The position numbers and the translations under genes were made by a program. Shown piece after piece: positions 3,827-9,745 of a stretch of DNA of 54,045 nt (position 1 is the first letter of the stretch; every line of letters begins with the position of its first letter). Origin of the DNA: an uncultured Gammaproteobacteria bacterium (lineage in GTDB: Bacteria > Pseudomonadota > Gammaproteobacteria > Arenicellales > JAANXG01); NCBI GenBank assembly GCA_947259175.1, contig CAMYKW010000028.1, positions 1 through 54,045 of the forward strand, given 5' to 3'. A model generated the notes under the pieces. The model saw nothing but the letters and a program-made list of their open reading frames with translations, was not told the origin of the DNA and searched no databases.

Positions 3827-5251
3827 ATGGCAAAAACTTACCAAGCCGGCGTCAAAGACTACCGCGAAACTTATTGGATGCCGGATTACACACCGAAGGA
3901 CACCGATATCTTGGCCTGCTTCAAGATCACCCCACAGCCGGGAGTGCCCCGCGAGGAGGCCGCGGCGGCGGTGGCGGCCGAGTCTTCGACCGGCACCTGG
4001 ACCACCGTGTGGACCGATCTGCTGACCGACCTGGATTACTACAAGGGCCGCGCCTATGCCATTGAGGACGTCCCGGGCGACGACGAATGTTTCTATGCGT
4101 TCATCGCCTATCCCATCGATCTGTTCGAAGAGGGTTCGGTAGTGAACGTATTTACGTCCCTGGTGGGCAACGTGTTCGGCTTCAAGGCCATTCGCGCCCT
4201 GCGGTTGGAGGACGTGCGCTTCCCGATCGCCTATGTCATGACCTGTAACGGCCCGCCGCACGGCATCCAGGTAGAGCGCGACAAGCTCAATAAGTATGGT
4301 CGCGCGCTGCTGGGCTGCACCATCAAACCGAAGTTGGGTCTGTCCGCGAAGAACTACGGCCGCGCCGTCTACGAGTGCCTGCGCGGCGGACTGGACTTGA
4401 CCAAGGACGACGAGAACGTTAACTCGCAGCCGTTCATGCGCTGGCGCAACCGATTCGAGTTTGTCATGGACGCGATCCACAAGGCGGAGCGCGAGACCGG
4501 CGAGCGCAAGGGCCATTATCTCAACGTCACCGCGCCGACGCCGGACGAGATGTTTAAGCGCGCCGAGTTCGCAAAGGAACTGGGCGCCCCGATCATCATG
4601 CACGACTACCTCACCGGCGGCTTCTGTGCCAACACCGGTCTCGCACAGTGGTGCCGGGACAACGGCTTACTGCTACACATCCACCGCGCCATGCACGCGG
4701 TGCTCGACCGCCATCCGCGCCACGGCATCCACTTCCGCGTGCTGACCAAGGCCCTGCGCCTGTCGGGCGGCGACCATCTACATTCCGGTACGGTGGTGGG
4801 TAAGCTCGAGGGAGATCGTGACGCCACCCTCGGATGGATCGATCTCATGCGCGACAGCTACATTAAGGAGGATCGTACCCGCGGCATCTTCTTCGACCAG
4901 GACTGGGGCTCCATGCCCGGTATCTTCCCGGTGGCCTCCGGCGGTATCCACGTGTGGCACATGCCCGCCCTGGTCACCATCTTCGGCGACGACGCCTGCC
5001 TGCAGTTTGGTGGCGGCACCCTGGGCCATCCGTGGGGCAACGCGGCCGGCGCCGCGGCCAACCGCGTGGCCCTGGAGGCCTGTGTCGAAGACCGCAACAG
5101 AAACGGCGCGGAGGGCCTCGAGAAGCGTGGCGGCGACGTGCTGCGGGCGGCGGCAAAGAGCAGCCCCGAGCTGGCGACCGCCATGGAGACCTGGAAGGAA
5201 ATCAAGTTCGAGTTCGATGTCGTAGATAAGCTCGATGTAGCCCATAAGTAA
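3827..5251 (+). CDS. cbbL: RuBisCO large subunit, form IA
   Basis: The 474-residue catalytic subunit of ribulose-1,5-bisphosphate carboxylase/oxygenase. Every catalytic residue I checked is present with a constant offset of 8 from plant numbering: K167 and K169 in TIKPKLG, the carbamylated lysine K193 with metal ligands D195 and E196 in [10 protein letters not shown]286/R287, and loop-6 K326 in [10 protein letters not shown]. The start [17 protein letters not shown] is typical of proteobacterial form IA. The downstream partners cbbQ and cbbO and the absence of csoS2 or shell genes point to the non-carboxysomal IAq type. The enzyme assembles as L8S8 with CbbS. A strong Shine-Dalgarno GGAGAA precedes the ATG. 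Confidence 0.98.
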
Positions 5252-5325: not shown

Positions 5326-5685
5326 ATGACTGAAATGCAAGACTACGCGTCACGGCTGTCCGATCCGGCGAGCCGCAAGTTCGAAACCTTCTCCTATCTG
5401 CCGGAGCTGTCTCAAGACGCCATCCGCAGCCAAGTCCAATACATCTGCGATAAGGGCTGGAATCCCGCGATCGAGCACGTCGAGCCGGAAAACGCCTTCG
5501 ACCACTACTGGTATATGTGGAAATTGCCGATGTTTGGTGAGACCGATGTCGACCGCATTCTGGCGGAGGCCGAAGCGTGCCACAAGGCCAACCCCAACCA
5601 CCATGTACGGCTGATCGGCTACGACAATTACGCCCAGTCGCAAGGCACCGCGATGGTTATCTTTCGCGGACCGATAAAGGTCTAG
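5326..5685 (+). CDS. cbbS: RuBisCO small subunit, form I
   Basis: A 119-residue small subunit. The diagnostic features are [12 protein letters not shown] near residue 18, [30 protein letters not shown], and the C-terminal [26 protein letters not shown]. It caps the CbbL octamer to form the L8S8 holoenzyme. GAGGAA precedes the ATG. It is co-transcribed with cbbL across a hairpin-bearing spacer and is followed by cbbQ after 116 bp that contain another hairpin. Confidence 0.98.
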
Positions 5686-5709: not shown

Positions 5710-5738
5710 GGCCCCTGACGCCAGGCGGCGCAGGGGCC
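5710..5738 (+). terminator. Hairpin (partial terminator/attenuator) between cbbS and cbbQ
   Basis: GGCCCCTG (5710-5717) pairs with CAGGGGCC (5731-5738), followed only by TT. This is a GC-rich stem without a full U-tract, so a leaky terminator or 3'-stabilising structure giving high cbbLS and lower cbbQO expression is the likely role. Confidence 0.6.
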
Positions 5739-5801
5739 TTCGCCGGGCCCGTTGATTGCACCAAAGCGCAAAGCGTACAGCCCCAACGAGCCAGCGATAT
5801 C

Positions 5802-6602
5802 ATGACTGACAAAGATCAATATCTCGTCAAGGCGGAGCCCTACTACCGTCCTGTGGACAATGAAGTGCAGATGTACCAAGCGGCCTACGAAGCGCGCATG
5901 CCGGTGATGCTCAAGGGCCCCACGGGTTGCGGCAAGTCCCGCTTCGTGGAGTACATGGCCTGGAAGCTGAAAAAGCCGCTTATTACCATCGCGTGTAACG
6001 AGGACATGACCGCCTCCGACCTGGTCGGCCGCTTTCTACTCGACATCAACGGCACCAAGTGGCAGGACGGGCCCCTCACCGCGGCCGCACGCCTCGGAGC
6101 GATCTGCTATCTGGATGAGGTCGTCGAGGCCCGCCAGGATACCACCGTGGTGATCCACCCCCTCACCGATCATCGCCGCAACCTGCCGCTGGAAAAGAAG
6201 GGAGAGTTGGTTGAAGCGCACCCCGATTTCCAGATCGTCATCTCATACAACCCGGGTTACCAGAGCCTGATGAAGGACCTGAAACAGTCCACGAAACAAC
6301 GCTTCGGGGCGCTGGACTTCGACTACCCGGACGCATCGGCCGAAGCCGAGATCGTCGCCCACGAGGGTGGCGTCGATAACGAGGTCGCGGATAAGTTGGT
6401 CCAGGTAGCGCGGCGCTCGCGCAACCTCAAGGGCCATGGCCTGGACGAGGGCATGTCGACCCGGTTGCTGGTGTATGCCGGACAGCTGATCAGCAAAGGC
6501 ATCGATCCGCAGGCGGCTTGCCAGATGGCGTTAGTGCGGCCGCTGACCGATGATCCGGACATGCGCGACACCTTGGATGCCGCGGTCAATACGTATTTCT
6601 GA
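5802..6602 (+). CDS. cbbQ: RuBisCO activase AAA+ subunit CbbQ
   Basis: A 266-residue MoxR-type AAA+ ATPase. Walker A GPTGCGKS spans residues 39-46, Walker [11 protein letters not shown] has D105/E106, and the region [22 protein letters not shown] contains sensor and arginine-finger elements. With CbbO it forms a hexamer plus adaptor that remodels inhibited RuBisCO active sites, releasing tight-binding sugar phosphates. The frame is open from 5577, inside cbbS, but the ATG at 5802 yields the normal family N-terminus and length. The distance from cbbS (116 bp) and the intervening hairpin suggest reduced expression relative to cbbLS. Confidence 0.96.
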
Positions 6603-6677: not shown

Positions 6678-9059
6678 ATGAGCATAGATTTCAGCGAGTA
6701 CGTCTCCTGTATAGATTTCGAGGATGAGCACGAGCACCGCGAGGCGCTCGAGTCGGCCTATCATGAAGCCGCACGGGTAATGTCGCCGCGCGGATTGCAG
6801 AACTATCTCGAAGGCATGCGCGCCATGTGCAGCCTGGGGCGTGGGCAGGATCTGGTGCTCACGTACGTTCAGGAGATGCCAAGCGTGGCGAAAGAGGTGG
6901 GGGAGGATGTGGTCCCCGATGTGGTCACCAGTCTGATGAAGCTGTCGTCACACACTTCGGGCACCGTCATTACGCTGATGATGAGCACCATGCCCCTGGC
7001 CGCCCGCCGTCTGGGCGACATAGACGTAATGCGGGGGTATCTCAAACTGCTGCATCAGTTGGCCGGCAAGGCGCCGCGCGGCTTAAGGCCGATGATGGAG
7101 CATCTCGATGAACTGTTGTCCAAGCTCACACTTGGGGGTCTGCGCCGCTGGGCACAGTGGGGCATGCAGGCCCACCAGCGCGATTTGGACGGACAGATGG
7201 CGTACTTCGGGCTGCAGACCCAATCCTCGCAGTCGGTCCTGCAGAAGGAACGCCGCGGCACGCTGTTTATCGACAATCAGCGCAAGCTCAACTTCTATTT
7301 GCGGGCGCTGTGGGCGCGGGCGTTTTATATGCGCCCCACCTCCGGGGATTACGAGACGCGCCAGGGCCTCAAGCCCTATATCGAAGACTTTCAAGTCCAC
7401 TTGCCGGACGCGTTTGATTCCTTTCGCGGGATAGACGGGATGGAAATCTATCGCGCCGCCGCCGCGCACTGCGCCGCCCACCTGGTGTACACGAGCGAGC
7501 CGCTCAGCGCCGAACAGCTCAGTCCCGCGCAGATGAAATTCATCGAGCTGTTCGAGGACGCACGCGTGGAGCACATGGCGATTCGGGAATTCCCGGGCCT
7601 GAAAAAGCTATGGCTCGGATTTTTCACCGAAGCGCCGTCCGGCGATGAGGACGTCGCGGATGTTCACCCGACCATGGAGTTGATGATGCGCATGGCGCGG
7701 GCGCTACTGGACGAGGACTACCAAGACGACGCGGCTTTCGTAAACGAAATCGCCGCGGAATTTCGGGCACAGTTAACCAGTAACCCGGATGCAAATCGAA
7801 TCAGCTGGATGGCGGGCGTGGACTTCTATAACCGTGTCGCCGAAACCAGTGCCATCCCGGGCCTTCGGCAGCTCGAAAACATGCCGGTGTCCTATCGCGA
7901 CGACAATCGCTACATCTGGGTGTTTGCGGAGAACCTGTTCGAGTCGCAAGGGGTGGATTATCTGCCTGAGGCCAATCAGCAGGTGCGCCGTTATGTGAAC
8001 ATCATGGAGATGGCCAATGAAATCGACGTACCCGGCGCCGGAGACGACGCGCAGGAGATTTGGGTGTGCGCCGACGAGGTCTTCCCTTACGAGGATGAAG
8101 GCGTCAGCTATAACCAGATGGAGGGTAAAGAACCGGTCTCCGAGCCATATCACTACGATGAATGGGATTACCACGTTCAGCTGACGCGTCCCGAATGGGC
8201 GACTGTGATCGAACGCCGCCAACCCAGGGGCGACCCGGAAATAATGGACGAGATTCTTACAAAGTATAAGCCGGTCGCCAGCCGTATCCGCCATCTGATC
8301 GATGCCATGCAACCCCAGGGCATCGTGCGCCGCCGTGGCTACGAGGAGGGTGAGGAACTCGATCTCAACGCGGCGGTGAGGGCGATGATTGATATACGCC
8401 GCGGTACCATGCCCAACCCGCGCATTAATATTCGTGTCACCCGACACATACGTGAACTGGCGATTGTGGTGCTCATGGATTTGTCCGAGTCCACCAACGA
8501 AAAAGTCGGCGTCAAAGAGCACGAGCCGGGATACGAAGACGCGCCCAGCATCCTGGATCTGACGCGCGAGTCCACCGGCCTTCTGGCCTGGGCAATCGAC
8601 TCCATCGGCGATGCCTTCGCCGTGCACGGATTCGCCTCGGATGGCCGCCACGACGTCCAGTACTTCCGCTTCAAGGACTTCAACCAATCCTATGACGATG
8701 AGTCCAAGGCGCGCCTGGCCGGTATGCAAGGGGGGCTGTCTACCCGCATGGGCGCTGCGCTGCGTCACGCGGGTTGGCACCTGTCCCAGCAATCGGCACA
8801 GAAGCGCCTGGTGCTGCTTATCACTGACGGCGAACCGGCTGATATCGACGAGCGTGATCCCCAATACCTGCGGCACGACACCAAGAAAGCGGTGGAGGAG
8901 CTGGCCATGCAGGGTATCTACACCTTTTGCCTGACCCTGGATCCGATGGCGGATCGCTACGTCGCCAGGGTTTTTGGGGAGAACAATTACTCCATCGTGG
9001 ATCACGTGGAACGATTACCGGAGCGGTTGCCCGCCGTGTTCGCCGCGTTGACCGGGTAA
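6678..9059 (+). CDS. cbbO: RuBisCO activase adaptor CbbO (VWA domain)
   Basis: A 793-residue protein: a long alpha-helical N-terminal region that docks on CbbQ, and a C-terminal von Willebrand factor A domain. The MIDAS motif DLSES is at residues 601-605 (VVLMDLSESTNEKV), with later VWA elements LSTRMGAALRHA and LLITDGEPADI. In characterised IAq systems the VWA domain, through its metal site, recruits the CbbQ ring to RuBisCO. It is 75 bp downstream of cbbQ and followed after three bases by the next gene, so translational coupling is likely. Length and layout match known CbbO proteins. Confidence 0.95.
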   Translation: MSIDFSEYVSCIDFEDEHEHREALESAYHEAARVMSPRGLQNYLEGMRAMCSLGRGQDLVLTYVQEMPSVAKEVGEDVVPDVVTSLMKLSSHTSGTVITLMMSTMPLAARRLGDIDVMRGYLKLLHQLAGKAPRGLRPMMEHLDELLSKLTLGGLRRWAQWGMQAHQRDLDGQMAYFGLQTQSSQSVLQKERRGTLFIDNQRKLNFYLRALWARAFYMRPTSGDYETRQGLKPYIEDFQVHLPDAFDSFRGIDGMEIYRAAAAHCAAHLVYTSEPLSAEQLSPAQMKFIELFEDARVEHMAIREFPGLKKLWLGFFTEAPSGDEDVADVHPTMELMMRMARALLDEDYQDDAAFVNEIAAEFRAQLTSNPDANRISWMAGVDFYNRVAETSAIPGLRQLENMPVSYRDDNRYIWVFAENLFESQGVDYLPEANQQVRRYVNIMEMANEIDVPGAGDDAQEIWVCADEVFPYEDEGVSYNQMEGKEPVSEPYHYDEWDYHVQLTRPEWATVIERRQPRGDPEIMDEILTKYKPVASRIRHLIDAMQPQGIVRRRGYEEGEELDLNAAVRAMIDIRRGTMPNPRINIRVTRHIRELAIVVLMDLSESTNEKVGVKEHEPGYEDAPSILDLTRESTGLLAWAIDSIGDAFAVHGFASDGRHDVQYFRFKDFNQSYDDESKARLAGMQGGLSTRMGAALRHAGWHLSQQSAQKRLVLLITDGEPADIDERDPQYLRHDTKKAVEELAMQGIYTFCLTLDPMADRYVARVFGENNYSIVDHVERLPERLPAVFAALTG

Positions 9060-9062
9060 CCC

Positions 9063-9383
9063 GTGCGTAACGTTTCCAGCTTTACCGAGACCGTCACCCT
9101 GAACGACGAGCAGTTACGTGAGCAAGTGCGTTATTGCGGTGAGCGCGGCTGGGCGTTATTGATCGAGCATACCGCAGATCCGTCTCCGGACAATCACTTC
9201 TGGGCGCGCTGGGGATTGCCGTTGTTGGATCCCGACGATCCCGAGTTGGTGTTATTCGAAATCAACGCCTGCCGCCAGGCGTTTCCCCAACATCATATCC
9301 GGGTGATCGCGAACGATTCGGCCATGGGAAGGTCGCTGGTTCGCCATAGCATATTGGTGCACGCGCCAACGCTGAGCAAATGA
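9063..9383 (+). CDS. RuBisCO small-subunit-like protein (CbbS paralogue)
   Basis: A 106-residue protein that aligns end to end with the cbbS core: LREQVRYCGERGWALLIEH against [30 protein letters not shown] against [10 protein letters not shown], and NACRQAFPQHHIRVIAND against [18 protein letters not shown]. It diverges where true small subunits are most conserved: the FSYLP start is replaced, and the DNxxxQ plus C-terminal RGP region is SAMGRSLVRHSILVHAP. It starts with GTG two bases after the cbbO stop and overlaps the next gene by ATGA, so it belongs to the activase end of the operon. It may bind RuBisCO as a decoy, adaptor or assembly factor, as the small-subunit-like domains of CcmM do. 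Function is inference. Confidence 0.85.
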   Translation: MRNVSSFTETVTLNDEQLREQVRYCGERGWALLIEHTADPSPDNHFWARWGLPLLDPDDPELVLFEINACRQAFPQHHIRVIANDSAMGRSLVRHSILVHAPTLSK

Positions 9384-9745
9384 CTCGCCGTATTCGCGAT
9401 GTCGCGCCGTTGCGCTCCATACCCAAAACCATCGAAGCGCGGTATTACAACCGCGTGCGCCTGGCGTTGACGCGCCTGGGCAAACCGCTGGAAGTGGAGC
9501 TGGATGGTGAGATGCGTCAAACCGATATGCTGCTCAGCGACCGCGAATGGTTGTGCGTCGACCGTGCACGCGATGACCTGCCGCTGCTCGCGTGGACAGA
9601 TTTTTCGATTAAAGAGCGGGACGCACTGCACGCCCCGGTCCGCTGCACGTTAAATCTGTATCACTCCCACGCAGGTCTGCTTATCGGACGCATACTGCCG
9701 ATCCTGGACCGGATCCTGGAACAGCGCTTGGCCGCAAAGGGCTAG
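9380..9745 (+). CDS. Unknown protein coupled to the cbb operon
   Basis: A 121-residue basic, apparently soluble protein without a signal peptide or membrane segment; I do not recognise the family. The N-terminus is arginine-rich (MTRRIRDVAPLRSIPK), the middle alternates beta-like segments (LEVELDGEMRQTDMLLSDREWLCVDRAR) and the end is amphipathic (LLIGRILPILDRILEQRL). It overlaps the small-subunit-like gene by four bases (ATGA), which implies translational coupling and perhaps a shared complex. It is the last gene of the cbb operon. The ORF is certain to be coding because of the overlap and the regular codon use; the function is unknown, with RuBisCO assembly or activation the contextual guess. 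Confidence 0.7.
   Translation: MTRRIRDVAPLRSIPKTIEARYYNRVRLALTRLGKPLEVELDGEMRQTDMLLSDREWLCVDRARDDLPLLAWTDFSIKERDALHAPVRCTLNLYHSHAGLLIGRILPILDRILEQRLAAKG

Follow-up and report, generated by a model that had tools for sequence, protein, structure and literature searches.

A RuBisCO small-subunit-like gene and its neighbour OrfX behind the CbbQO activase genes of a gammaproteobacterial form IAq operon

In cyanobacteria, small-subunit look-alikes are already known to serve as docking modules for RuBisCO, and in the Rubisco activase of these bacteria a small-subunit (SSU)-like domain is fused to an Rca-type activase. The SSUL modules of CcmM are small-subunit-like, lack the RbcS motifs for RbcL and are distinct from the real subunit (PMC8580825; PMC9833052); they bind the groove between large subunits, not the RbcS site (PMC8580825), as described in the available text of these papers. 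The modules are repeated, and the long form of CcmM adds a gamma-carbonic-anhydrase-like domain; their likeness to RbcS is called coincidental in the accessible part of one review (PMC9833052). As for the CbbQO activase, CbbO binds RuBisCO via its VWA domain, with specificity traced to the RbcL C-terminus, according to the portion at hand of the work by Tsai, Mueller-Cajar and colleagues (PMC8718961). In the available parts of the CbbQO literature, that paper among them, we found no mention of the two proteins described below.

The window analysed here, a stretch of 54,045 nucleotides, encodes the CbbQO activase in a cbb operon of the order L-S-Q-O, with all genes on the plus strand. Specifically, cbbL (3827..5251; NF003252, 780 bits) encodes a form I large subunit, cbbS (5326..5685; PF00101, 132.4 bits) a genuine form IAq small subunit that carries FSYLP and falls in the IAq group of our trees, cbbQ (5799..6602; PF08406 CbbQ_C, 123 bits) a MoxR-type AAA+ ATPase, and cbbO (6678..9059) the activase adaptor with a von Willebrand factor A domain at residues 596-759 (PF00092, above cut-off). 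Two further genes follow. The first, at 9063..9383, begins with GTG three bases after the cbbO stop at 9059 and encodes a 106-residue protein, here called SSUL; the second, at 9380..9745, overlaps the end of SSUL by 4 bases and encodes the 121-residue OrfX. The preliminary description of this DNA had read 9063-9383 as a second RuBisCO small-subunit-like gene at the end of the cbb operon, directly behind the activase genes and coupled to an unknown gene, and this reading is upheld in both respects by the Pfam match given below and by the spacing.

PF00101 matches only twice in the 4.18-Mb genome, at SSUL and at cbbS (match 5380-5667). The neighbouring cbbL, beside the IAq cbbS, is the sole PF00016 match, and SSUL is thus left without a large-subunit partner of its own lineage. 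A search of the genome for BMC shell proteins gave none (PF00936, 0 matches; E. coli and Synechococcus control genomes gave signal), and a carboxysome role for SSUL in this host is therefore unlikely and was set aside. CsoS2 likewise gave 0 matches (PF12288), a search run without positive control and uninformative alone.

Like the CcmM modules, as the accessible sources describe them, SSUL resembles a small subunit and lacks the RbcS motifs for RbcL. Unlike them, it is a single free PF00101 domain and a clear small-subunit homologue, apparently red-type in affinity, and it stands beside CbbQO in a genome in which no shell protein was found. An SSU-like domain is linked to a RuBisCO activase here as in the cyanobacterial activase, with the difference that SSUL is a separate protein beside a MoxR-type activase. 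In the openly licensed literature, we found no SSU-like gene behind cbbO, no name for the SSUL-OrfX pair and no SSU look-alike beside the CbbQO activase of chemoautotrophs.

Fold, missing parts and affinity of SSUL

SSUL matches PF00101 with 83.5 bits (E 1.1e-23, model positions 8-95 of 97); against the cut-off of 27, its likeness to small subunits is far beyond chance. A chance match or a misread frame was excluded by this score, by orthologues in seven other genomes and by omega. The AlphaFold2 model has a mean pLDDT of 82.9, with residues 1-9 below 50 (no true lone subunit was modelled as control). Its best Foldseek match is 5nv3_I (E 7.4e-10, TMq 0.84), and the small-subunit fold is present. 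Among solved structures, the R. sphaeroides form IC subunit is the best match by sequence and by fold alike.

The alignment reveals what is missing. At the site of the N-terminal S-x-L-P arm motif, the SSUL of the window reads FTETV and none of the eight SSUL members keeps SxLP, where form IC rows have FSFLP (FSFLH in two rows) and form IA rows FSYLP, FSFLP or FGFLP. The arm lies in a region credited with at least two thirds of the RbcS-RbcL interaction energy in the available part of a review (PMC9833052). At the other end, the DNxxxQ...RGP terminus of IA subunits is absent, and so is the beta-E/beta-F hairpin of red-type subunits, SSUL ending at residue 106 and complete IC rows measuring 135-140 aa. 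The red-type hairpins line the central channel, contact the large subunit more than their green counterparts and act in biogenesis, in the accessible text of a second review (PMC9833100).

Between these ends, SSUL keeps 28 of the 59 IC-conserved positions. With region borders set by us, these are 1/8 in the N-terminal arm, 3/7 in helix A, 4/4 in strand A, 4/9 in the A-B loop, 4/7 in strand B, 2/3 in the next loop, 4/7 in helix B, 3/5 in strand C, and 3/9 in strand D and the tail. Arg49 is found in all eight SSUL members, at a position occupied by Met in IC and IA rows. Besides the arm, the near-universal CbbS residues in the part of PMC9164163 at hand (Table 2) are Y25, E36, W48, L53, P54, F56 and E67 in C. 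necator numbering; with an offset of one, taken from the PDB alignment, the SSUL of the window keeps six of these seven (Y24, E35, W47, L52, P53 and E66, F being replaced by L55) and 6/10 of all residues in that list. Together, the alignment and the predicted fold show that the small-subunit core is kept in SSUL and that the N-terminal arm motif and the red-type C-terminal hairpin are gone.

The eight SSUL members have a mean identity of 38.5% to 14 IC rows vs 27.7% to 15 IA rows, and at 14 IC/IA-diagnostic columns the SSUL of the window agrees with IC 7 times and with IA once; neither count includes the partial IC row L016. In a small-subunit tree of 73 rows, all from the bacterial class of the host, SSUL forms one clade (100/100) and the IA subunits form one side of a branch that excludes SSUL (100/100). 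An 80-row tree, which also holds 4 carboxysome-locus rows, the G383 fusion described below and 2 partial IC rows, agrees. Placing SSUL with all IA subunits on one side (within IC vs between IC and IA) gave p-AU 0.459, and grouping it with IAq alone gave p 0.105 in the 73-row tree. Forcing SSUL and a csoS2-linked subunit, described below, into one clade gave p 0.323, which leaves room for a single origin of the truncated subunits.

Judged by sequence, SSUL does not belong to the IA clade, and its nearest relatives are the red-type (form IC) small subunits. It shares with them a DPxPxN..W loop, found in most SSUL members, and a similar N-terminal start, and OrfX stands in red-type operons too; it differs from red-type CbbS in the missing SFLP arm and hairpin, in Arg49 for Met and in having no second large subunit in the genome. 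The preliminary description had likened SSUL to the cbbS product and had counted an FSYLP arm and a DNxxxQ/RGP end as lost. Homology to small subunits and the absence of both motifs are borne out; the closest relatives, however, are red-type and not the neighbouring cbbS, and the absent RGP end is therefore expected of a red-type relative and is not a loss.

SSUL in related genomes

We then turn to relatives of the host, where PF00101 matched in 16 of 60 genomes (the own genome and 59 others). A second, weaker match 3.7-4.0 kb from cbbS is present in the own genome and G001-G007, that is, in eight of the 13 sampled genomes of the family. The order cbbO-SSUL-OrfX is the same in all eight, and OrfX occurs in these same eight of the 60 genomes. 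Within the family, G011 and G012 carry red-type cbbLS and OrfX was not found in them, and G008-G010 gave neither a PF00101 match nor OrfX. Eight of the 12 IAq operons in this sample carry SSUL and OrfX, all eight in the one family; in the other four, namely a second operon in G003, of the order cbbLSQO (L168:1-14000), and those of G013, G018 and G032, both were absent from the stretches read. Patterns specific to SSUL, run against 84,980 species genomes, hit seven loci, those of G001-G007, all from uncultured gammaproteobacterial MAGs. The SSUL gene was thus found in one family only, and OrfX is widespread.

The gap between SSUL and OrfX is -4 to 27 bases in all eight genomes. That between cbbO and SSUL is -1 to 3 bases in six, 63 in L033 and 275 in L031 (G001). 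In L031, an insert of ~270 bases with inverted ends (5720-5994) lies in the first SSUL codons and parts SSUL from cbbO; past it the frame is open, with a start at the insert's edge, and this copy may be damaged.

Median omega (Nei-Gojobori) is 0.151 for SSUL (23/28 pairs unsaturated), 0.118 for OrfX (24/28) and 0.037 for CbbS (28/28), values that are rough given a median dS of 0.7-1.1. Median dN is 0.175 for SSUL vs 0.029 for CbbS, a difference of about six times. Purifying selection keeps both SSUL and OrfX, and the constraint on SSUL is much looser than that on CbbS.

These data bear on two further claims of the preliminary description. SSUL is indeed a small-subunit mimic associated with the activase genes, conserved with OrfX in eight of 13 family genomes under the omega given above and with the arm missing. 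Conservation of the cbbO-downstream pair across IAq operons was only partly confirmed: the pair is conserved in the eight operons and OrfX widely beyond them, but SSUL itself belongs to one family. As a general feature behind cbbO, SSUL did not hold up, since 78 other OrfX genomes yielded a single divergent fusion to OrfX (in G383) and the A. ferrooxidans cbb2 operon has cbbO as its last gene in the available text of PMC2942843.

OrfX and its settings

OrfX matters as much as SSUL in this finding. It has no Pfam match, and an NCBIfam amidase match lies far below cut-off. Its AlphaFold2 model has a pLDDT of 91.5; Foldseek gave no match at E <= 0.001, and the best VIA-align match, to the assembly chaperone Atp11 (2p4f, Z 6.5), is in the tool's "common" range and thus at noise level. 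The Nitrosomonas europaea operon cbbLSQON carries a gene of unknown function, cbbN, behind cbbO, and OrfX may be cbbN; no paper on cbbN was found in the openly licensed literature.

Of 369 genomes of the class, 82 carry OrfX by a profile built from the eight members, the own genome counted, and 16 of the 82 have two or three copies. A PF00016 match is present in 78/82 genomes with OrfX vs 109/287 without (Fisher p ~2e-22, from a table that omits the own genome and has one genome too many in its no/no cell; RuBisCO-like proteins are counted by PF00016 as well). The four OrfX genomes without such a match are G092, G342, G357 and G383; the G383 contig begins just before cbbS, and OrfX of G357 stands directly behind cbbO.

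The gene context was read for the best-scoring loci and some chosen ones, giving 73 entries for 72 genes (L052 and L113 are one gene). OrfX follows CbbX in 14 entries (13 genes), 12 of them within 50 bases, lies <=1.5 kb behind CbbO in 25 and further from CbbO in 4, and follows a small-subunit-like gene in 9, of which 8 are the SSUL operons; 16 entries have none of these contexts and 5 lie at contig ends. The CbbX assignment is based on the L064 protein, which has AAA+ and lid domains and lies behind red-type cbbLS, and on the likeness of the others to it; we take this type of protein to be the one named CbbX. All 13 OrfX genes seen in red-type operons stand behind CbbX, in the order L-S-X-OrfX. 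In RuBisCO operons, members of the OrfX family thus often stand behind the gene of an activase, be it CbbX or CbbO, and the majority of the copies read in context have no SSU-like neighbour. Additionally, we observed OrfX near low-scoring large-subunit matches resembling form II (L061, L098), two OrfX genes close together behind cbbO (L102:4011-4733 and L103:1173-2214), and, 5' of OrfX in G298 (L135:8305-9081), an open frame in which a short peptide unit recurs, probably because of tandem repeats that do not code for protein.

OrfX is found alongside an SSU-like protein in three settings, of which the SSUL operons are one. The second emerged from a PF00101 search of 78 of the 81 other OrfX genomes (G211, G305 and G417, with OrfX matches near E 1e-3, were left out): in G383 alone, an SSU-like domain stands behind CbbO, and it is divergent and fused to OrfX. 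The 230-aa frame (L134:3784-4476; PF00101 33.3 bits, cut-off 27) lies behind cbbS, cbbQ and cbbO, cbbL being lost to the contig end; two members of the G383 family with OrfX have frames of 141 and 145 aa, too short for the fusion. The third setting is that of G227 and G429, two genomes of one genus, in which a hairpin-less small subunit that keeps FSFLP, then OrfX, directly precede csoS2 (L073:7015-7742 and L180:8622-9336); the stretches read contain no cbbL. In G227, csoS2 matches PF12288 with 744 bits and the only PF00016 match, an IAq cbbL, lies ~16 kb away. Such a pair could possibly act as a cargo adaptor where the RuBisCO genes of the carboxysome lie elsewhere; in Thiobacillaceae, csoS2 without cbbLS immediately upstream is described in the available part of a review (PMC9164163).

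In the OrfX tree, in which context labels were set by us from neighbouring genes and the cut copy L113 was left out, a 43-row group (88/85) holds 27 of the 29 IAq-linked OrfX, with the OrfX of the window outside it, and the csoS2-linked OrfX groups with a red-type one (100/99). The eight SSUL-linked rows require two changes and form one group in 77% of bootstrap trees; OrfX of L033 is placed weakly (24/61) beside a very long row. This tree suggests that the pairings of OrfX with SSU-like proteins may have arisen separately.

Proposed role and alternatives

SSUL probably works with the adjacent OrfX. The reading we favour, with a probability of about 0.4, is that a small subunit of red-type affinity has turned into the stand-alone docking module SSUL, working with OrfX at the CbbQO activase. 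SSUL would no longer be a holoenzyme subunit; by analogy with the CcmM modules, it would hold the form IAq holoenzyme weakly and reversibly, and through it OrfX, and perhaps also CbbQO, would reach RuBisCO when the enzyme is activated or repaired. OrfX would do the same work unaided in most organisms, the SSU-like anchor having been gained here and apparently separately elsewhere. Contact of SSUL with IAq RuBisCO is not a given, because its affinity is red-type and the enzyme is green-type. If SSUL does dock on RuBisCO, the small subunit has become an adaptor more than once in nature, here as a red-type one beside a green-type enzyme.

A wider and more tentative proposal is that OrfX is an unrecognised accessory of both CbbX- and CbbQO-class activases, to which a hairpin-less or divergent SSU-like module has been attached as RuBisCO anchor, by adjacency or fusion, in several lineages; the fusion of G383 is known from one genome. 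If true, SSUL and OrfX would make up an activase docking unit of a new kind, and the pair that precedes csoS2 in G227 and G429 would perhaps act as a carboxysome cargo adaptor. That OrfX, itself without Pfam match, stands behind the activase gene in operons of both the red and the green type points to a part of RuBisCO maintenance still missing from the picture, one that can be tested in a genetically tractable autotroph.

The main rival, which we consider unlikely, makes SSUL an alternative holoenzyme subunit that occupies the ordinary site on IAq large subunits and yields a mixed L8S8 enzyme with other kinetics. SSUL shares its operon with cbbL, it has kept the core fold and the 28 IC-conserved positions, the near-universal residues that it retains mean that the ordinary site could still be used, and RuBisCO hybrids that contain foreign small subunits have been described (PMC9833052, Table 2, as far as that text is available). 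However, the arm motif is gone in all eight members with no hairpin in its stead, dN is some six times that of CbbS, and a subunit of red-type affinity would have to sit beside a green-type large subunit. Somewhat less likely still is that SSUL partners or stabilises OrfX in biogenesis, for example as a decoy SSU surface during assembly, making no stable contact with finished RuBisCO. The tight SSUL-OrfX coupling, the fusion in G383 and the noise-level match of OrfX to an assembly chaperone would fit such a role, whereas the frequent position of OrfX behind activases and its absence from 109 of the 187 genomes with a PF00016 match speak against it.

We regard it as improbable that SSUL is a functionless remnant of a red-type operon (cbbL-cbbS-cbbX-OrfX) that has otherwise disappeared. 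Without L and X, the red-type order would indeed leave a small subunit beside OrfX, red-type cbbLS is present in the family (G011, G012) and one of the eight copies has an insert at its start; yet median omega (0.151) is low over the 23 unsaturated pairs, and the frame is open from near its normal start in eight genomes, always in the same place behind cbbO. Least credible of all is that SSUL arose by simple duplication of the neighbouring cbbS, with which it has fold and operon in common, because in a tree with genuine CbbS, as proposed in the preliminary description, constraining SSUL to group with the cbbS genes of the genomes that carry it costs 24 log units (p-AU 0.010, ~120 columns) and the diagnostic columns of SSUL are IC-like.

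Divergent small subunits are also seen apart from OrfX. Among the 109 genomes with PF00016 and without OrfX, 80 were searched; 56 of these have a small subunit, and two have a second, divergent one (G074, and G356 with stops). Another type of divergent SSU-like protein is encoded at L140:6434-6970 (minus strand), L141:15209-15529 (plus), L143:14676-15086 (minus) and L142:6944-7444 (plus); these proteins match PF00101 with 33-48 bits and form one clade in the 80-row tree (99/99). Those of L140, L141 and L143 lie ~6-9 kb from csoS2, and those of L140 and L142 have a hydrophobic C-terminal stretch that could be a membrane tail.
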